The position numbers and the translations under genes are program-made. Below, in pieces: positions 696 through 9,867 of a stretch of DNA of 10,026 bases. The notes under the pieces were generated by a model. It saw only the letters and a list, made by a program, of their open reading frames with translations. It made no database searches and had not been told where the DNA came from. This stretch comes from Candidatus Rokuibacteriota bacterium. Lineage in GTDB: Bacteria > Methylomirabilota > Methylomirabilia > Rokubacteriales > JACPHL01. How positions within the stretch are numbered: position 1 is the first letter of the stretch; each line of letters begins with the position of its first letter. The stretch covers positions 1-10,026 of the forward strand of contig JACPHL010000327.1 in the NCBI GenBank assembly GCA_016188625.1, in the 5' to 3' direction.

Positions 696-1454
696 GTGCG
701 CGCCCTCATCGTCAACGCCGATGACTGGAGCCTCACCGGCGGGGTGAGCCGCGGGATCCTGGAGGCCCACCGCCGGGGCGTCGTCACCAGCACCACGGCC
801 CTGGTGAACCTCCCCGTGGACGAGGCCCTGCTCTCCGAGATCCTGGCGACGCCGACCCTCGGGGTCGGCCTCCACCTCAACCTCACCTGGGGCCGCCCCC
901 TCTCGCCGCCCGAGGCCGTCCCCTCCCTGGTGGATGACGAAGGACGCTTTCGGCGCGACCCCGAGGCGGTGGCCGCCCGGGCCAAGCCCATCGAGGCCCG
1001 GCAGGAGCTGGAGGCCCAGATCGAGACCTTCGCCGCCCTGTTCGGCCGCCGCCCCACCCACCTCGACAGCCACCACCACCTCCACCGCTACCCCCCGCTG
1101 GACGAGCTGGTCCTCGACCTCGCCCTGGCCACCGGGCTCCCCCTGCGCAGCCAGGACCCCGGCTTCCGCGCCCGGCTCCGCGAGCGGAGGCTGCCGACCC
1201 CGGACCACTTCCTCGGCGACGTCGGGGCGGAGCCGTACTGGACCCTCTCCCGGCTCCTCGACACCCTCGCGGTGCTCGAGGAAGGGGTGACCGAGCTGAT
1301 GTGCCACCCCGGGCACTACGACGAGGCCCTGGCCGGGAGCCGCTACGGCCGTCAGCGCGAGGCGGAGCTGGCGTCGCTCGTCAACCCCGAGGTCCGGGCC
1401 ACCGTCGAGCGGCTCGGCATCCGGCTCCTCCACTTCGGCGCCCTGAGGCCCTAG
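696..1454 (+). CDS. YdjC/ChbG-family carbohydrate deacetylase
   Basis: This 252-residue protein carries the full set of YdjC-family motifs: NADD at residues 7-10, GLHLNLT with His60, HLDSHHHLH at 122-130, and CHPGHYD at 203-209. In this family an Asp of the NADD motif together with two His (here His60 and one of the 126-128 cluster) binds the catalytic divalent metal. The characterised member ChbG removes an N-acetyl group from chitooligosaccharides such as chitobiose-6-phosphate; other members act on different acylated sugars or are uncharacterised. The length is normal, and there is no signal peptide, so it is cytosolic. GTG at 696 is chosen because GAGG (687-690) lies 5 nt upstream and the NADD motif must be near the N-terminus. 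A ROK kinase gene follows after 19 bp, supporting a role in processing an acylated sugar. The family is certain; the substrate is not. Confidence 0.9.
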   Translation: MRALIVNADDWSLTGGVSRGILEAHRRGVVTSTTALVNLPVDEALLSEILATPTLGVGLHLNLTWGRPLSPPEAVPSLVDDEGRFRRDPEAVAARAKPIEARQELEAQIETFAALFGRRPTHLDSHHHLHRYPPLDELVLDLALATGLPLRSQDPGFRARLRERRLPTPDHFLGDVGAEPYWTLSRLLDTLAVLEEGVTELMCHPGHYDEALAGSRYGRQREAELASLVNPEVRATVERLGIRLLHFGALRP

Positions 1455-1473
1455 GGAGCTCGGGAGCGGGCGG

Positions 1474-2463
1474 GTGCACGACGACGCGGCGATCCTCAGC
1501 GTGGACATCGGGGGGACGACGACCGCCGCCGGCCTCGTGACCCCGGAGGGGCTGATCCTCTCCTGCGAGACCGCGCCGACGCTGGGCCGAGGGCGCGGCC
1601 GGGTGCTGGAAGGGATCCTCGCCCTCCTCGTCGCGACGCGCGCGGACGCCGTCCGACGCGGGGTGCGCCTGCGCGGGGTCGGGGTCGGGGTCCCCGGGGC
1701 CGTGGACGCGACGACGGGCCAGATCGGCCGGGACATCCAGAACCTCCCCGAGCTGGCCGGCTGCCCGCTCGGGGCACGGGTGACGGAGGCCCTCGACCTG
1801 CCCGCGGTGGTGGACAACGACGTCAACGCCCTGACCCTCGGCGAGAGCTACTACGGGGCGGCGCGGGGCGCGCGGCACTTCGCCCTCCTCGCCCTCGGGA
1901 CCGGCGTGGGCGGCGGTCTCTACCTGAACGGCGAGCTGGTCCGGGGGGTGTCGGGGTACGGCGGCGAGCTCGGTCACATCCCCGTGGACCTGAACGGCCG
2001 CGCCTGCTTCTGCGGCGGCCGGGGCTGCCTGAAGGCGTACGTCTCCGGGCCCGACATCGCCGCGCAAGCCCGGGAGGCCCTCGCCGAGGCCGAGGGCTCC
2101 GCGCTCCTCGCCCTGGCGGGCTCGCCCGAGGCCCTGACCGCCCGGCACGTCTTCGAGGCGGCGGGGGCCGGGGATCCGCTGGCGCTGGACGTGGTGGAGC
2201 GGGTCTGCCAGGCGCTCGGGGCGGGGCTGGCCGCGATCCTGAACGGCTTCAACCCGGAGCTGATCGTCCTCACGGGCGGGGTGGCCGAGTCGCTCGAGGC
2301 GTTCATGGACGCCGTGCTGCGCTGGACCCGGGCCTACGCCTTCGACGGGGCGTACCGCGCGGCCCGGATCGCCTGCGTCGCGATCGGGAAGTCGGCGTCG
2401 ATCCGCGGGGCGGCCGCCCTCTACCTCTACGAGGAGGCGCGCCGGGGAGGGGCGCGGGGGTGA
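1474..2463 (+). CDS. ROK-family sugar kinase (glucokinase / N-acetylhexosamine kinase type)
   Basis: This 329-residue protein has the ROK architecture. The phosphate-1 loop DIGGTTT is at residues 11-17, the catalytic Asp116 lies in VDNDVN, and ALGTGVGGGL marks the second ATP lobe. GGELGH contains Glu165 and His168, and the zinc-binding signature is CFCGGRGC (Cys178, Cys180, Cys185, with His168 as fourth ligand). ROK kinases phosphorylate glucose, N-acetylglucosamine, N-acetylmannosamine, allose or fructose with ATP in the cytosol; transcriptional repressors of the family carry an N-terminal helix-turn-helix, which is absent here. One residue is odd: the zinc motif normally continues as GCLE, and that Glu contacts the sugar, but here it is Lys187 (codon AAG). 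The GTG start at 1474 has GGGAG 7 nt upstream. The gene ends in a 4-bp GTGA overlap with the next gene. The family is certain; the substrate and full activity are open because of Lys187. Confidence 0.9.
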   Translation: MHDDAAILSVDIGGTTTAAGLVTPEGLILSCETAPTLGRGRGRVLEGILALLVATRADAVRRGVRLRGVGVGVPGAVDATTGQIGRDIQNLPELAGCPLGARVTEALDLPAVVDNDVNALTLGESYYGAARGARHFALLALGTGVGGGLYLNGELVRGVSGYGGELGHIPVDLNGRACFCGGRGCLKAYVSGPDIAAQAREALAEAEGSALLALAGSPEALTARHVFEAAGAGDPLALDVVERVCQALGAGLAAILNGFNPELIVLTGGVAESLEAFMDAVLRWTRAYAFDGAYRAARIACVAIGKSASIRGAAALYLYEEARRGGARG

Positions 2464-3509
2464 AGGCGATCACCCTGCACGGGGTCGCGGACGTCCGGGT
2501 CCAGGAGCACGCCGACCCCCGGATCCAGGAGCCGACCGACGCCCTCGTCCGGATCACCACGAGCGCCATCTGTGGCTCGGACCTCCACTACTACCACGGG
2601 CGCTTCCCGAACGTCGAGCCCGGGATCGTCCTGGGCCACGAGTTCGTCGGCGAGGTCGTGGAGGTCGGCGCCGAGGTGCGGGGCTTCCGGCCCGGGGACC
2701 GCGTGGTCGCCCCGTTCTCGATCTCCTGCGGCCGGTGCGAGGCCTGCAAGGAGCGCCTCCCCGCCCAGTGCCAGACCACGAACCGCGCGGTCTTCGGCGG
2801 CCGCTTCGGGCGGCAGTACCCCGGCGCCCAGGCTTCGTTCATCCGCGTCCCCTTCGCCGACTTCATGTTCGAGCGGGTCCCGGCCGGGATGCCCGACGAG
2901 CAGGCGATCTTCCTCGGCGACATCCTCGCGACCGGCTACTTCTGCGCGGAGAACGGCGGGATCCGGCCCGGGGATCAGGTGGCGGTCGTGGGGTGCGGCC
3001 CGGTAGGGCTCCTGGCCATCCAGTCGGCCCAGCTCTTCGGCCCGGCCCGCGTCTTCGCCGTGGACCGGGTGGAGTACCGGCTCGCCCTGGCCGAGGCGTT
3101 CGGGGCGGTTCCGGTGGACGCCTCGCGGGCCGACCCGGTCGCGGCCATCCGCGCCGAGACCGGCGGCCGCGGGGTCCCCGTCGCCATGGAGTGCGTCGGC
3201 CATGCCTCGGCGCTCGAGACCGCGCTCGGGCTGGTCAAGGCGGGCGGGACCGTCTCGGTGGTCGGGGTCTACGCCGAGGCCGCGTTTCCGTTCCCCATCA
3301 GCCAGGCCTTCTTCGGCGACCTCACCTTCAAGATCGGGATCTGTAACGCCCGGAACTACATCACCCGGCTCCTCCCGCTGGTCCAGGCCGGCCGGCTCGC
3401 GCCCACGCGGATCGTCAGCCACGTCATGGGGCTCGCCGAGGGGCCGCGGGGCTACCGGATCTTCGACCGGAAGGAGGAGCGGGCGATCAAGGTCCTCCTG
3501 AAGCCATGA
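2460..3509 (+). CDS. Zinc-dependent medium-chain alcohol/polyol dehydrogenase (Tdh / formaldehyde dehydrogenase-like)
   Basis: This 349-residue protein is a typical two-domain medium-chain dehydrogenase. The catalytic zinc site is Cys38 (ICGSD), His60-Glu61 (GHEF) and probably Asp154 in GDILATG, the pattern of glutathione-independent formaldehyde dehydrogenases and related enzymes. The structural zinc site is complete: Cys90, Cys93, Cys96 and Cys104. The Rossmann fold has GCGPVG at 178-183, and the second strand ends in Asp202, which favours NAD+ over NADP+. These cytosolic enzymes reversibly oxidise an alcohol, polyol or threonine-type substrate to an aldehyde or ketone. The GTG start overlaps the stop of the ROK kinase (GTGA, 2460-2463) and the stop overlaps the next ATG (ATGA, 3506-3509), so the three genes are very likely translated together. 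That places it in a sugar-derivative pathway, but its substrate cannot be named from sequence alone. Confidence 0.88.
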   Translation: MKAITLHGVADVRVQEHADPRIQEPTDALVRITTSAICGSDLHYYHGRFPNVEPGIVLGHEFVGEVVEVGAEVRGFRPGDRVVAPFSISCGRCEACKERLPAQCQTTNRAVFGGRFGRQYPGAQASFIRVPFADFMFERVPAGMPDEQAIFLGDILATGYFCAENGGIRPGDQVAVVGCGPVGLLAIQSAQLFGPARVFAVDRVEYRLALAEAFGAVPVDASRADPVAAIRAETGGRGVPVAMECVGHASALETALGLVKAGGTVSVVGVYAEAAFPFPISQAFFGDLTFKIGICNARNYITRLLPLVQAGRLAPTRIVSHVMGLAEGPRGYRIFDRKEERAIKVLLKP

Positions 3510-6370
3510 CCGAGCTCGAGCACGAGCTGCGGAAGGTCGTCGAGGGGGAGGTGCGCTTCGACCGGATGACGCGCCTCCTCTACGCCACCGACGCCTCCAT
3601 CTACCAGATCGAGCCGATCGGGGTCGTCTTCCCGCGGCACGCCGGCGACGTCCAGGCCGTCCTCGAGGTGGCGAACCGGGCCGGGGTCCCGATCCTCCCC
3701 CGCGGCGCGGGGACGAGCCTGGCGGGACAGACGGTCGGCCACGCCATCGTGCTGGACTTCTCGCGGCACATGAGCCGGGTCCTCGAGGTGAACCCGGAGG
3801 CGGGGTGGGCGCGGGTCCAGCCGGGGGTCGTGCAGGATGAGCTGAACGCCCACCTGCGCCCCATGGGGCTCCTCTTCGGCCCCGACACCGCCACCTCGAA
3901 CCGGGCCACCCTCGGCGGGATGATCGGGAACAACTCCGCCGGCTCCCACTCCATCGCCTACGGGAAGACCATCGACCACGTCCTCGAGCTCGATGTCCTC
4001 CTCTCGGACGGGACCCCGGCGGTCTTCCGGCCCCTCGCCCCGGGCGAGCTCGAGGCCAAACAGGCCGGCAACGGGCTCGAGGCGCGGATCTACGGCGAGG
4101 TCGCGCGCATCGTCCGGGAGCAGCGGGAGGAGGTCCTGGCGCGCTACCCCAAGCTCATGCGCCGGGTCTCCGGGTACAACCTGGACGAGTTCGTCAGGGA
4201 CCGGCCCTTCAACCTCGCCAAGCTGGTCGTCGGCTCGGAGGGGACCCTGGCCGCTGTCGTCGAGGCCAGGGTGCGCGTGGTCCCGCGCCCGCCCGCGACC
4301 TCGCTGGCGGTGGTCCACTTCCACGAGCTCCAGGAGGCCCTGGCGGCCTCCCCCCTGATCCTGGAGACCCGCCCCTACGCCCTCGAGATGGTGGACAAGC
4401 TGATCCTGGATCTGGCCAAGGGCTCCCTCGAGCACGCGGCCCGGCGCGCCCGCTTCGTCCAGGGCGACCCGGGCGCGATCCTCCTGGTCGAGTACGCGGG
4501 GGAGGGCGAGGCCGAGGCCCGGGCCCAGGCCGAGGCCCTCGAGGCCCGGACCCGCGCCGGGGGGATCGGCTACGCCACCGTCGTCGCCCTGGACCCCGAG
4601 GCCCAGCAGAACATCTGGAAGGTCCGGAAGGCGGGCCAGGGGCTCCTCATCGGGATGAAGGGGGAGCGGAAGCCGATCGCCTTCGTCGAGGACACCGCGG
4701 TCGCCCCCGAGCAGCTCCCGGAGTTCGTCCGCCGCTTCAAGGCCACCGTGGAGCGGTACGGGACGACGGCCGGCTACTACGGCCACTGTTCGGTCGGCTG
4801 CCTGCACATCCGCCCGCTCATGAACCTCAAGCGCGCGGAGGAGGTGGCCAGGATGCGGGCCATGGCCGAGGAGATCGTCGAGCTGGTCATGGAGTTCGGC
4901 GGGGCCCTCTCCGGCGAGCACGGCGACGGGCTGGCGCGCGGGCAGTGGAACGAGCGGCTCTTCGGCCCGCGCCTCTACCAGGCCTTCCGCGCGATCAAGG
5001 CGGCCTTCGACCCCAAGGGGCTCATGAACCCCGGGAAGATCGTGGACTCCCCGCCCATGACCGAGAACCTCCGCTACGGGCCGACCTACCGGACCTGGGA
5101 GCCGTCCACGCTGCTCGACTTCTCGGGGCAGGGGGGGGTCGCCGCGGCGGTGGAGATGTGCAACGGCGTCGGGGCCTGCCGGAAGCGCCTCGACGGGGCG
5201 ATGTGCCCCTCCTACATGGCCACGGGGGACGAGGAGCACTCGACCCGCGGCCGGGCCAACGCGCTCCGGGCGGTCCTCTCGGGGGCGCTTCCCAGGGAGG
5301 AGTTCACCGGTCGGCGGCTCCACGAGGTCCTCGACCTCTGCCTGGAGTGCAAGGCGTGCAAGGCCGAGTGCCCGGCCAACGTGGACATGGCCAAGCTCAA
5401 GTACGAGTTCCTGGCCCACTACCACGCGGCCCACGGCCTCCCCCTCCGCAACCGGCTCTTCGGCAGGATCGAGACGCTGAACCGGCTGGGCTCGCGGTTG
5501 GCCCCGCTCTCGAACTGGATCGCCGGCTCCGCCCCGAGCCGCTGGCTGCTGGAGCGGTTCGCGGGGATCGACCGGCGCCGGCCGCTCCCGCCCTTCGCCC
5601 GCCAGCCGTTCACGGCCTGGTTCCGCCGCCACGCCCCGTCGGGCGACGGCCGGCGGGGGCGCGTCGCCCTCTTCCACGACACCTTCGTGACCTACAACGC
5701 CCCGGCCATCGGGATCGCCGCGACCCGCTTCCTCGAGGCGGCCGGCTATCAGGTGGTCCTGCCCGACAAGCGCTGCTGCGGCCGGCCGCTGATCTCCAAG
5801 GGGATGCTCGGCGAGGCCAGGGCCCATGCGGCCTGGAATGTGGCCCGCCTCCTCCCCCTGGTCCAGGAGGGGGTCCCGGTGGTGGGGCTCGAGCCCTCCT
5901 GCCTCCTCACCCTCCGCGACGAGTACGTGGACCTCCTCCGCTCCCCCGAGGCGAAGGCGGTGGCCGAGGCGAGCGTCCTCTTCGAGGAGTTCCTCCGTCG
6001 GGAGGCCGAGGCCTGGAAGGGGCTCACCTTCGCCCCGGGCCCCGGGCGGGTCCTCCTCCACGGGCACTGCCACCAGAAGGCCCTCGCCGGGACCGCCGCC
6101 ACGGTCGCGGCCCTCCGCCGCGCCGGCTACGAGGTCGGGGAGGTGGACGCCGGCTGCTGCGGGATGGCGGGGGCCTTCGGGTTCGAGCGGGAGCACTACG
6201 ACCTCTCGCTCGCCATCGCCGCCCGCCGGCTCGTCCCCGCGCTCCGGGCCGCGGGGGAGGGCGTGGAGGTCTGCGCCCCGGGGGTCTCCTGCCGCCAGCA
6301 GATCGAGCACACCACGGGCCGGCGCGCCAGGCACCCGGCCGAGCTGCTCTGGGCCGCCCTCCGGGCCTGA
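3506..6370 (+). CDS. FAD-linked 2-hydroxyacid dehydrogenase fused to 4Fe-4S and CCG domains (YdiJ / GlcD-GlcF type)
   Basis: This 954-residue fusion has, in order, a PCMH-type FAD-binding domain (about 35-215, with PRGAGTSLAGQT and GNNSAGSHS), a FAD-oxidase C-terminal domain (about 235-515), a dicluster ferredoxin domain (Cys552, Cys558, Cys567; then Cys612, Cys615, Cys618, Cys622) and a two-part cysteine-rich CCG domain (Cys757-Cys758-Gly and Cys884-Cys885-Gly, with PSC and GHCHQKAL motifs between them). His427, His434 and His472 (in SGEHGDG) match the metal-ligand and substrate positions of D-2-hydroxyacid dehydrogenases. Homologues oxidise D-lactate, D-2-hydroxyglutarate or glycolate and pass electrons through the Fe-S centres to the quinone pool. 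No signal peptide or membrane helix is seen, so it should be cytosolic or peripherally attached. Its ATG overlaps the dehydrogenase stop (ATGA). E. coli YdiJ is of similar size and layout. The architecture is secure; the substrate is inferred only as a D-2-hydroxyacid. Confidence 0.92.
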   Translation: MTELEHELRKVVEGEVRFDRMTRLLYATDASIYQIEPIGVVFPRHAGDVQAVLEVANRAGVPILPRGAGTSLAGQTVGHAIVLDFSRHMSRVLEVNPEAGWARVQPGVVQDELNAHLRPMGLLFGPDTATSNRATLGGMIGNNSAGSHSIAYGKTIDHVLELDVLLSDGTPAVFRPLAPGELEAKQAGNGLEARIYGEVARIVREQREEVLARYPKLMRRVSGYNLDEFVRDRPFNLAKLVVGSEGTLAAVVEARVRVVPRPPATSLAVVHFHELQEALAASPLILETRPYALEMVDKLILDLAKGSLEHAARRARFVQGDPGAILLVEYAGEGEAEARAQAEALEARTRAGGIGYATVVALDPEAQQNIWKVRKAGQGLLIGMKGERKPIAFVEDTAVAPEQLPEFVRRFKATVERYGTTAGYYGHCSVGCLHIRPLMNLKRAEEVARMRAMAEEIVELVMEFGGALSGEHGDGLARGQWNERLFGPRLYQAFRAIKAAFDPKGLMNPGKIVDSPPMTENLRYGPTYRTWEPSTLLDFSGQGGVAAAVEMCNGVGACRKRLDGAMCPSYMATGDEEHSTRGRANALRAVLSGALPREEFTGRRLHEVLDLCLECKACKAECPANVDMAKLKYEFLAHYHAAHGLPLRNRLFGRIETLNRLGSRLAPLSNWIAGSAPSRWLLERFAGIDRRRPLPPFARQPFTAWFRRHAPSGDGRRGRVALFHDTFVTYNAPAIGIAATRFLEAAGYQVVLPDKRCCGRPLISKGMLGEARAHAAWNVARLLPLVQEGVPVVGLEPSCLLTLRDEYVDLLRSPEAKAVAEASVLFEEFLRREAEAWKGLTFAPGPGRVLLHGHCHQKALAGTAATVAALRRAGYEVGEVDAGCCGMAGAFGFEREHYDLSLAIAARRLVPALRAAGEGVEVCAPGVSCRQQIEHTTGRRARHPAELLWAALRA

Positions 6371-6529: not shown

Positions 6530-7378
6530 ATGGTGGTGAGCGTCCCACCGACGCGGGCCGCTGCGCGCGCGGCCCCCAAGCCCGCCGGGCACCGGCGGCC
6601 TGGGCTTGCGGGGCTGCGCCCGGAGCCGTTCCTCACGGCCCTGACCCTGATCTCCGTCTTCCTGGTCTGGTACGCGATCGCCCGCTTCCGAGTGGTCTCG
6701 GAGCTCTTCGTCCCCCACCCGGCCTCGGTCTGGCAGGCCTTCCTCGACATCCTCACCGAGGGGTATCGGGGCGGCACCCTCCTCCACCACCTGTTCGACA
6801 GCCTCTACCGCGTGGTGGTGGGCTTCCTCCTGGCGGTCGCGACCGCGGTGCCCCTCGGGCTGGCGATCGGCTACTCGTCCAAGGTCCAGGCGATCTTCGA
6901 TCCCATCATCGAGTTCTATCGCCCGCTCCCGCCCCTGGCCTACTACACGCTCCTGGTCATCTGGCTCGGGATCGAGAACGAATCGAAGATCGCGCTCCTC
7001 TACCTGGCGGCCTTCCCGCCGCTCTCGGTGAGCGCCATGGCCGGCGTCAGGGGGGTGACCGCGGAGCGGATCCAGGGGGCCCAGTCTCTGGGGGCCAGCC
7101 GCTGGCAGGTCTTCCGCTACGTCGTGTTCCCCTCCTGCCTGCCGGATATCTTCACCGGCATGCGGGTCAGCGTCGGGTTCACGTATACCACCCTGGTGGC
7201 CGCCGAGATGGTGGCCGCCACCTCAGGGATCGGGTGGATGGTCCTGGACGCCTCCAAGTTCCTCCGCTCCGATGTGATCTTCATGGGGAACATCGTGATG
7301 GGCCTCACCGGGCTCGGGCTGGACCGGCTCATCCGGGTGGCGGAAAGGCGGGTGGTGCCATGGAAGGGGAAGGCGTAG
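6530..7378 (+). CDS. TauC/SsuC-type ABC transporter permease
   Basis: This 282-residue integral membrane protein of the BPD_transp_1 family starts with a 35-residue Pro/Ala/Arg-rich cytoplasmic tail. About six hydrophobic segments follow, the first near residues 38-56 and the second near 93-115. The ATPase-contacting EAA loop is recognisable at about 175-205 (AERIQGAQSLGAS...). DPIIEFYRPLPPLAYY and the C-terminal RRVVPWKGKA resemble E. coli TauC as I remember it. It would form the inner-membrane channel, probably as a homodimer, for the binding protein and ATPase encoded at 8052 and 9088. Substrates of this subfamily include taurine, alkanesulfonates, nitrate-type anions, pyrimidine precursors and guanidine-like compounds, so the fold alone does not decide. 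It precedes the DUF1989 gene by 11 bp. Confidence 0.88.
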   Translation: MVVSVPPTRAAARAAPKPAGHRRPGLAGLRPEPFLTALTLISVFLVWYAIARFRVVSELFVPHPASVWQAFLDILTEGYRGGTLLHHLFDSLYRVVVGFLLAVATAVPLGLAIGYSSKVQAIFDPIIEFYRPLPPLAYYTLLVIWLGIENESKIALLYLAAFPPLSVSAMAGVRGVTAERIQGAQSLGASRWQVFRYVVFPSCLPDIFTGMRVSVGFTYTTLVAAEMVAATSGIGWMVLDASKFLRSDVIFMGNIVMGLTGLGLDRLIRVAERRVVPWKGKA

Positions 7379-7389
7379 GAGCTGGCGCG

Positions 7390-7977
7390 ATGGAAGAGAT
7401 CCTGGTTCGGGGCCGAACCGGGCACGCCTTCGTCCTGGCCCGAGGGGAACGGTTCAAGGTCGTGGACGTCCAGGGCAAACAGGTGAGCGACCTGGTGGCG
7501 TTTCTGCGGGACGATCCGACCGAGCGGTTCTCGCCGGGCAACACGCGGAAGCTCAACGGGAGACTCAAGATCTCCCGCGGGGGCATCCTCTACTCGACGA
7601 AGTGCCGTCCGCTCCTTCGGATCACGGAGGACACGGTGGGGGAGCACGACCTTCTGTTCTCCTCCTGCAGCGCGTACGACTACCGGGTCCGCTTCGGCCT
7701 CACCGCGCCCCACGCGAGCTGTCTCGGCATCCTGGCCGGGGTGCTGGCGCCCTACGGGGTGTCCGAGCCGATGATCCCCGACCCCTTCAACATCTTCCAG
7801 CACACGGAGGTCACGCCGGAGTGGGGGCTCGTCACGCGCGAGCCGCTCTCAAAGCCCGGCGATTTCATCGAGCTTCAGGCGGAGGCAGACTGCCTGGTCG
7901 CGCTGACCGCCTGCCCCCAGGATCGGAACCCTTGCAACGGCTGGACCATCACCGACATCAAGGTCATCCTGGGGTGA
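7390..7977 (+). CDS. DUF1989 (urea carboxylase-associated) family protein
   Basis: The 195-residue product fits DUF1989. It has VVDVQGKQVSDLVAF (24-38), PLLRITEDTVGEHD (74-87), SCSAYD (92-97), a PDPFNIFQH segment (131-138) and the family's hallmark GDFIELQAEADCLVAL...ACPQD..PCNG (157-184). His86, Cys93 and Cys175 are the likely metal ligands by motif position. Known members include the UAAP1/UAAP2 pair next to urea or guanidine carboxylase, shown in some bacteria to act as carboxyguanidine deiminase (CgdAB); many stand-alone members have no known reaction. This one is single and resembles the stand-alone type more than UAAP2 in its ACPQD motif. The start at 7390 is preferred over the in-frame ATG at 7360 because AGGAG (7377-7381) sits 8 nt before it and it avoids overlap with the permease. 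It lies between permease and binding-protein genes, so it probably acts on, or in response to, the imported compound. Confidence 0.85.
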   Translation: MEEILVRGRTGHAFVLARGERFKVVDVQGKQVSDLVAFLRDDPTERFSPGNTRKLNGRLKISRGGILYSTKCRPLLRITEDTVGEHDLLFSSCSAYDYRVRFGLTAPHASCLGILAGVLAPYGVSEPMIPDPFNIFQHTEVTPEWGLVTREPLSKPGDFIELQAEADCLVALTACPQDRNPCNGWTITDIKVILG

Positions 7978-8051
7978 GGGAGAAGGGAGGTGGGCACGGC
8001 GGGAGGGGAGAAGGAACCGAACCTCGAAACGATCCAACGGAGGGAGCCCTT

Positions 8052-9068
8052 ATGGGGAAGGCACGGTGGCTCATCGGGACAGTGGTATTTCTTGTCGCTG
8101 GCGCAGTGCTGGCCTCCGGCCTCTGGGCCCAGGCCAAACCCGACAAGGTGATCATCGGCTATCAGGTGATCCCGAACAACGAGATCATCGCCAAGGCCCT
8201 GGGCTGGCACGAGAAGGAGCTGGGGGTCAAGATCGACTGGAAGCAGTTCGATTCGGGGCGCGACGTCAACACGGCCATGGCGGCCGGGAGCATCGACATC
8301 GCCCTGGTGGGCTCGAGCCCCGCGGCTGCGGGCCTCTCGGCGGGGGTCCCCTACGAGGTCATCTGGCTCTACGACGTGATCGGCGACAACGAGGCCCTGG
8401 TGGCCAAGAAGGGGAGGGGGATCAAGGCGGTGAAGGACCTGGTGGGCAAGAAGGTGGCGGCCCCCTTCGGCTCTACCACCCACTACCACCTCCTGGTGGC
8501 CTTCAAGGTCTTCGGTGTGGACCCCAAGAAGGCCACCATCCTGGACATGCAGCCCCCTGACATGCTGGCCGCCTGGCAGCGGGGGGATCTCGACGCCGGG
8601 TTCGTCTGGGAGCCGACCCTCATCAAGATGGTGGAATCGGAGGGCGAGGTCATCCTCTCGAGCCGGGCCCTGGCCGAGAAGGGGTTCCTGACGGCGGACG
8701 TGGCGGTCGTGCGGAAGGGCTTCGCGCAGAAGTACCCGGACCTGGTCGTCAAGTACCTCCGGACCCTGTCCCGCGCCGTGGACCTCTACCGGAAGGACCC
8801 GCAGGAGGCCGCGAAGGCGGTGGCCAAGGAGTTTAACATCCCGGCGGCCGAGGCCGACCGCCAGATGAAGACCCTGGTCATGCTCAACGGCAAGGAGCAG
8901 CTTTCGGACAAGTACCTGGGGACCTCGGCCAAGCGGGGAGCCCTTGCCAAGGCGCTCAAGGACACGGCGGATTTCCTGGCAGAGCAGAAGACCATCCGCA
9001 CGGCGGCGACCCTGGCCGCCGTCGAGAAGGCCGTCAACCCCTCCTATCTCGAAAAGGCCATGAAGTAG
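8052..9068 (+). CDS. TauA-like periplasmic substrate-binding protein of an ABC transporter
   Basis: The 338-residue product begins with a Sec signal peptide (basic MGKARW, hydrophobic core about 7-24, predicted cleavage after the WAQA segment near residue 28). No lipobox Cys is present, so the mature protein should be soluble in the periplasm. The mature part has the type-2 periplasmic-binding fold of the NMT1/TauA group, with FDSG (66-69), GSSP (87-90), FGSTTHY (139-145), QPPDMLAAWQRGDLD (167-181) and FVWEP (184-188). These closely follow the E. coli taurine-binding protein TauA as recalled. The ATG at 8052 is supported by GGAGG at 8-nt spacing and by the signal peptide. A 74-bp purine-rich spacer separates it from the DUF1989 gene. 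Taurine or another small sulfonate is the default ligand, but the DUF1989 neighbour makes a guanidinium- or urea-type ligand possible. Confidence 0.9.
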   Translation: MGKARWLIGTVVFLVAGAVLASGLWAQAKPDKVIIGYQVIPNNEIIAKALGWHEKELGVKIDWKQFDSGRDVNTAMAAGSIDIALVGSSPAAAGLSAGVPYEVIWLYDVIGDNEALVAKKGRGIKAVKDLVGKKVAAPFGSTTHYHLLVAFKVFGVDPKKATILDMQPPDMLAAWQRGDLDAGFVWEPTLIKMVESEGEVILSSRALAEKGFLTADVAVVRKGFAQKYPDLVVKYLRTLSRAVDLYRKDPQEAAKAVAKEFNIPAAEADRQMKTLVMLNGKEQLSDKYLGTSAKRGALAKALKDTADFLAEQKTIRTAATLAAVEKAVNPSYLEKAMK

Positions 9069-9087
9069 GCGGGGAGCGGGGAAGACC

Positions 9088-9867
9088 GTGGGCCGGTCCA
9101 TCCTGGAGATCGACGAGGTGATGATGGAGTACCCCTCCAGTGATGGACCGGTCACGGCCCTGGAGCGGGTGAGCCTGGCGATCGGGGAGGGGGACTTCGT
9201 CTGCCTGGTCGGCCCCTCCGGGTGCGGCAAGACCACGCTGCTCCGGATCATCGCGGGCTTCGTCCTCCCCACGGCCGGCCAGGTCCGCCTCGATGGCGAA
9301 CCCATCCTCGGGCCGGACTACCAGCGCGGGGTCGTCTTCCAGCATCCGGCCCTCTATCCCTGGCTGACCGTCCAGGCGAACGTGGAGTTCGGTCCCAAGA
9401 TGCGGGGCCTGCCCTCGGCCAGGCGCCGGGAGCTGGCGGAGCACCACCTCCGCATGGTGCGGCTCTGGGACTTTCGCACGAAGACACCCTATGAGCTTTC
9501 GGGGGGGATGCAGCAGCGGGTCGCGATCGCCCGGGTCCTGGCCAACGACCCCCGGATCCTCCTCATGGACGAGCCCTTCGGGGCCCTGGACGCCCTGACG
9601 CGGGAGCACCTCCAGGAGGAGCTCCTGAAGATCTGGAAGGCCACCGGCAAGACCGTCTTCTTCATCACCCACAGCGTGGAAGAGGCCTGCTACCTGGCCA
9701 CCACCATCTTCGTCATGTCCGCCCGCCCCGGCCGGATCCTGGCGAGCATCGAGGCGCCCTTCAGCCGGCAGGCGGCCACCCAGGACAGCCGGGCCGTCAA
9801 GTCGAGCCCGGAGTTCGTGGCCTTGCGCGAGCAGGTGTTGCGCTATATCTGGGAGACCGAGAGCTGA
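9088..9867 (+). CDS. ABC transporter ATPase, TauB/SsuB/NrtD type
   Basis: This 259-residue cytosolic ATPase has every nucleotide-binding motif intact: Walker A GPSGCGKTT (42-50), Q-loop Gln85 in VFQHPALYPW, signature LSGGMQQR (137-144), Walker B ILLMDEP (157-163) with D-loop FGALD (164-168), and the switch His195 in ITHSVEEA. The FQ...LYPWLTV and THSVEEA wording is typical of the nitrate/sulfonate/taurine importer ATPases. As a dimer it would drive the TauC-like permease encoded at 6530. The GTG start at 9088 follows the binding-protein stop by 19 bp and has only a modest ribosome binding site in GGGGAGCGGGGAA. It is the last gene of the unit in this window. Function as an importer ATPase is secure; the substrate follows that of the system. 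Confidence 0.93.
   Translation: MGRSILEIDEVMMEYPSSDGPVTALERVSLAIGEGDFVCLVGPSGCGKTTLLRIIAGFVLPTAGQVRLDGEPILGPDYQRGVVFQHPALYPWLTVQANVEFGPKMRGLPSARRRELAEHHLRMVRLWDFRTKTPYELSGGMQQRVAIARVLANDPRILLMDEPFGALDALTREHLQEELLKIWKATGKTVFFITHSVEEACYLATTIFVMSARPGRILASIEAPFSRQAATQDSRAVKSSPEFVALREQVLRYIWETES

Follow-up and report, generated by a model that had tools for sequence, protein, structure and literature searches.

DUF1989 proteins constitute a widespread metalloprotein family for which the literature found describes just two activities, carboxyguanidine deiminase and trimethylamine N-oxide (TMAO) demethylase. In the demethylase (Tdm), C263, C279 and C343 bind zinc, H276 and D346 have been proposed as iron ligands, and D198 has been examined by mutation (PMC12560246). 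The DUF1989 proteins CgdA and CgdB occur in guanidine operons, such as those of Pantoea and Rhizobium, which comprise an importer, CgdA, CgdB and a carboxylase. In the taurine importer TauABC of E. coli, the binding protein TauA contacts taurine via Q30, G61, G79, E106, T132 and D205 (PMC6906117). The locus considered here lies in a 10,026-base stretch of DNA (the window) from Candidatus Rokuibacteriota bacterium, which represents an entire contig of a draft genome (G000; 84% complete) belonging to the same class as Rokubacteria CSP1-6 (G071). Here an importer of the taurine type is accompanied by one DUF1989 gene, whose product has a TMAO-demethylase-like metal site. The genes for permease, DUF1989 protein, binding protein and ATPase follow one another on a single strand, spaced 11, 74 and 19 bp apart; this layout and the Tau-type character of the importer, both described in an original prediction made from the sequence alone, are borne out by open reading frames and by Pfam and NCBIfam domain models.

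The binding protein is identical to E. coli TauA at all six taurine contacts and at 12 of 13 pocket positions, compared with 112 of 314 positions (36%) overall (hypergeometric P 3e-5). Searches with the sequence (phmmer, 1e-51 to E. coli TauA 6ssy) and with a structural model (Foldseek, top match 6ssy, E 4e-26) return the same protein, the model having a predicted local distance difference test score (pLDDT) of 72, a moderate confidence that bears on the fold and not on pocket geometry. Q30 and D205 are also present in TauA of Paracoccus yeei and S. meliloti, which are encoded in annotated taurine operons (that of Paracoccus with Xsc), and two of the six contacts are changed in TauA-like proteins from other operons of G004 and Variovorax, which have F or Y at position 30 and N at position 205. 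The binding protein of guanidine operons differs from TauA at most pocket positions, and the window protein scores 38 bits against the model of that type (cut-off 334). The pocket comparison that had been proposed thus came out in favor of TauA and not of the guanidine-associated type. Because the pocket residues of TauA are conserved and the structure search yields TauA, the ligand is most likely taurine-like, a prediction held with modest rather than strong confidence.

In the 195-residue DUF1989 protein, D34, C93, H108, C111, C175 and D178 match D198, C263, H276, C279, C343 and D346 of TMAO demethylase. Its AlphaFold2 model (pLDDT 96.9) has as its best match in the PDB another DUF1989 protein, 3siy, with a template modeling (TM) score of 0.95. 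CgdB and its Rokubacterial relatives have the histidine mostly replaced by T, S, L, M or P and the last aspartate by I, T, V or L, and CgdA has lost most of the metal-site residues. The window protein reaches 118 bits against TIGR03424 (cut-off 285), and its signature, DCHCCD, is not of the CgdB type. In a tree of 92 rows, which leaves the exact nearest relatives of the pair unresolved, the DUF1989 proteins of the window and of CSP1-6 group together with full support, outside the CgdA/CgdB clade (support 96/90). Two further DUF1989 genes exist on other contigs of the window genome; neither is CgdA-like. The operon copy is the sole DUF1989 gene of the CSP1-6 genome.

Relatives of the operon were sought among 95 genomes of the class, which stood for the whole phylum. 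The gene order is repeated in CSP1-6, with proteins 82-90% identical, and therefore reflects neither chance nor misassembly; recurrence, which had been singled out as a check, is thereby confirmed. In a scan of genome contigs reaching outside the phylum, CSP1-6 was the sole other genome with the whole operon, and none of four plasmid TauA homologs inspected had an annotated DUF1989 neighbor. Orthologs of the binding protein were found in G071 (87% identity), G073 (85%), G081 (91%, on a contig beginning within this gene) and G036 (about 65%), and orthologs of the permease, 84-88% identical, in G071, G073 and G036, with a truncated one (81%) at a contig end in G089. The TauA-like gene of G036 is frameshifted once (L089, 4724-5672, G036:C71), in an operon without DUF1989, which may reflect decay or an assembly error.

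The junction between permease and binding protein is readable in four genomes and contains DUF1989 in two of them, G000 and G071, which places the gene between the same two neighbors across two families. It is missing from G073, a congener of G071, and from G036. The G073 junction reads GCCGTCAAGGTG-TCTCTGAATGA, and the DUF1989 gene of G071 ends in GACGTCAAGGTGATCTCTGAGTGA; the last 21-23 nt of the gene thus persist in G073 and run directly into a spacer shared with G071. Just 2 of 17,266 23-mers ending in TGA, drawn from related loci with G071 and G073 themselves among them, score as high. From the sequence, this remnant is a clear deletion scar. In G036, a 19-base stretch (P about 0.001-0.004) has 18 matches to the 5' region of the window DUF1989 gene and lies in the same phase relative to an ATG, encoding the peptide VVDVQG, which makes a second deletion probable. 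Since relatives without the gene retain pieces of it, DUF1989 is probably an ancestral, dispensable component of the operon that was deleted at least once and probably twice. A recent insertion was accordingly rejected, and the description of the gene as inserted was not upheld.

Where retained, the DUF1989 gene is under purifying selection, with a ratio of nonsynonymous to synonymous substitutions (dN/dS) of 0.15 between the window and CSP1-6, close to the 0.12-0.16 of the transporter genes. Absence of the gene from close relatives had been named as an outcome that would speak against a joint system. Such absence does occur in G073 and G036 and marks the gene as optional; irrelevance does not follow, because selection acts on it where it is kept.

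Together, these features can be accommodated by a model in which the substrate of the TauC-TauA-TauB importer would be an aminosulfonate, small and zwitterionic, with taurine or one of its close analogues the likeliest. The metalloprotein encoded by DUF1989 probably resides in the cytoplasm; with its three-cysteine zinc site and the His/Asp pair beside it, it would most likely break a C-N bond, either in the compound taken up or in one of its derivatives. It would not be a transport component; rather, an ancestral dispensable gene would have been deleted in some lineages while the importer was kept. If the ligand is taurine-like, it is reasonably likely that the enzyme acts on it or on a derivative. 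Taken as a whole, the proposal that a taurine-like importer is accompanied by an optional metalloenzyme acting on its ligand, or on a derivative thereof, is tentative. A more specific version is quite improbable: DUF1989 would represent an undescribed type of enzyme that attacks a C-N bond in taurine, or in an N-substituted form of it such as taurocyamine or N-methyltaurine, delivered by the adjacent importer; if true, taurine nitrogen would be reached by a route that needs none of TauD, TauXY, Tpa and Xsc.

Several observations weigh against a taurine-like ligand. TauA, TauB and TauC all remain below the NCBIfam equivalog cut-offs (Table 1). TauD has no match in the drafts G000, G071 and G073, and neither Xsc nor SsuD exceeds its cut-off in five genomes including these three; the draft status of the genomes, which are 75-93% complete, renders each such absence provisional. 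Classical sulfonate use was rejected on these results. The importer of relatives is flanked by acyl-CoA and tricarboxylate-transporter genes, with no sulfonate genes: the G073 block is preceded by genes for a thiolase, a 3-hydroxyacyl-CoA dehydrogenase and a protein resembling ADP-forming CoA ligases, and is followed by TctCBA, and in G089 an AMP-binding CoA ligase gene overlaps the permease gene. These flanks and the missing sulfonate-cleaving genes would suit an importer for a non-sulfonate zwitterion, such as beta-alanine, gamma-aminobutyric acid, a betaine or a carnitine-like acid, that feeds acyl-CoA catabolism and from which DUF1989 would strip the amine part. However, the sulfonate-contacting Q30 and the remaining taurine contacts are all retained, and the neighbors vary from one genome to another, with neither G000 nor G036 retaining them, which leaves this alternative unlikely, although it deserves serious attention. 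TctCBA itself was rejected as a core component, its ortholog being lacking in G000 and G036.

The link between enzyme and importer may also be questioned. DUF1989 could be a bystander whose own role, in housekeeping or detoxification, is separate from the importer, and which is transcribed along with it by chance and disappears when unneeded; it has been lost from one or two of the four operons with the transporter genes remaining, and DUF1989 genes occupy many unrelated neighborhoods within the class. Its maintenance between the same genes in two families, the low dN/dS and the inclusion of DUF1989 in several different importer operons argue otherwise, so that a bystander role is rather unlikely. 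The idea put forward originally, in which guanidine, urea or a compound resembling carboxyguanidine is taken up and processed and DUF1989 serves as a deiminase, is favored by the pairing of CgdA and CgdB, themselves DUF1989 proteins, with a Tau/Ssu-family importer in guanidine operons. The window supplies no CgdA partner and no guanidine riboswitch, and a search for fused urea/guanidine carboxylase (TIGR02712) in eight genomes, G000, G071 and G073 among them, returned carboxylase-domain pieces only, none over the cut-off. The absence of sulfonate and carboxylase genes noted in the original prediction was corroborated in G000 and CSP1-6 for TauD and, above the model cut-offs, for Xsc, SsuD and urea/guanidine carboxylase. 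Its guanidine/urea link was not supported: on clade, metal signature, binding-protein type, and riboswitch and carboxylase searches, such a system was rejected and is now very improbable.

Table 1. Features of the importer operon and the gene preceding it (window coordinates).
Feature	Position	Strand	Supporting evidence
TauC-like ABC permease, first gene of the operon	6530..7378	+	PF00528 (BPD_transp_1) 76.6 bits; best NCBIfam model PRK10160 TauC 259.6 bits, cut-off 342
DUF1989 metalloprotein, 195 aa	7390..7977	+	PF09347 164 bits, cut-off 27
TauA-like periplasmic binding protein, signal-peptide-like N-terminus	8052..9068	+	best model TIGR01729 taurine binding protein 261 bits, cut-off 304
TauB-like ATPase	9088..9867	+	PF00005 116 bits; best model PRK11248 TauB 291 bits, cut-off 357
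D-2-hydroxyglutarate dehydrogenase-like FAD/FeS protein, ends 159 bp upstream of the permease	3506..6370	+	NF049975 666 bits, below cut-off

The ATPase gene is the final one readable on the contig. Upstream of the importer, positions 696-6370 encode a YdjC deacetylase-like protein, a ROK kinase, a zinc alcohol dehydrogenase and the D-2-hydroxyglutarate dehydrogenase-like protein in overlapping or tightly packed genes, a run that looks like a catabolic operon for a sugar derivative. A tblastn match to the last of these genes adjoining the importer is absent from loci L041, L087, L088, L089 and L159. Because it is not retained beside the importer in relatives, its product probably stands outside the system, and the YdjC-ROK-dehydrogenase-D-2-hydroxyglutarate dehydrogenase genes as a group were rejected as members on the same grounds.

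The association of DUF1989 with importers is a recurring theme. Palleronia and Klebsiella plasmids carry DUF1989 within amino-acid importer operons; on the conjugative plasmid of Klebsiella pneumoniae (L064, 3649-9212), genes for an amino-acid importer, an M20 hydrolase, DUF1989 and a cupin are consecutive and located near insertion sequence elements. Another locus (L129, 2054-6657, G064:C120) encodes, consecutively on one strand, a DUF1989 protein of the DCNCCG type, an NMT1-like binding protein, a Tau-like permease, an ATPase and a DAO-family FAD oxidoreductase. About a dozen genomes of Rokubacteriales (L103, L108, L111, L114, L117-L120, L122, L123, L127, L128) possess two distinct adjoining DUF1989 genes with the signatures DCDCCG and DCHCCD, which in L122 adjoin an importer of the branched-chain-amino-acid type. 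As this pair falls outside the CgdA/CgdB clade, it may represent a further heteromeric pair of DUF1989 proteins.

Other DUF1989 genes have different surroundings. The second DUF1989 gene of the window genome (L039, 6901-9683, G000:C64) lies directly upstream of two genes resembling methionine synthase (MetE C-terminal), and at L055 (8209-13366, G093:C23) five successive ureohydrolase-family (agmatinase/arginase-like) genes on one strand adjoin DUF1989. An apparent hydantoin/Asp-Glu racemase gene, judged by eye, is adjacent to DUF1989 at L057 (2702-8238, G041:C114) and L095 (6107-7422). The L057 neighborhood, with a carbamate kinase gene 2-3 kb from DUF1989, suggests ureide or hydantoin breakdown.

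The occurrence of DUF1989 in several importer operons suggests a link to the uptake of small nitrogen compounds, and such operons point to reactions on these compounds beyond those described for the family. The well-studied pocket of TauA yields a narrow, testable guess of a taurine-like ligand, and the near-identical importers with and without DUF1989 inside one genus (G071 and G073) provide a natural comparison.

Compared with TauABC as known from E. coli and from the tau operons of Paracoccus and Sinorhizobium, the importer of the window has a counterpart of each of the three subunits, at about 36-48% identity to E. coli, with the taurine-contacting residues of TauA conserved; it differs in its C-A-B order with DUF1989 between C and A, in the lack of adjacent TauD, TauXY or Xsc, and in its scores under the equivalog cut-offs. 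With the CgdAB operon (UAAP1/UAAP2 and a Tau/Ssu-like importer), it shares the presence of DUF1989 in an operon for a Tau/Nit-family importer. Unlike that operon, it has a single DUF1989 protein outside the CgdA/CgdB clade, with the H and D residues of the metal site, and another binding protein, and no carboxylase, allophanate hydrolase or riboswitch lies within reach. The structural-genomics DUF1989 proteins 3oru/3siy (TM1040_0329) and 3di4 (SPO0365) correspond in family and fold (TM 0.95 and 0.89), yet are just 30-31% identical to the window protein. TMAO demethylase can be aligned over the entire domain (86 bits) and has the same residue at each of the six positions of the metal site (D, C, H, C, C and D); in contrast to this enzyme, the window protein is a stand-alone polypeptide of 195 residues that consists of PF09347 only, without the C-terminal GCV_T and N-terminal DUF1989-like domains.

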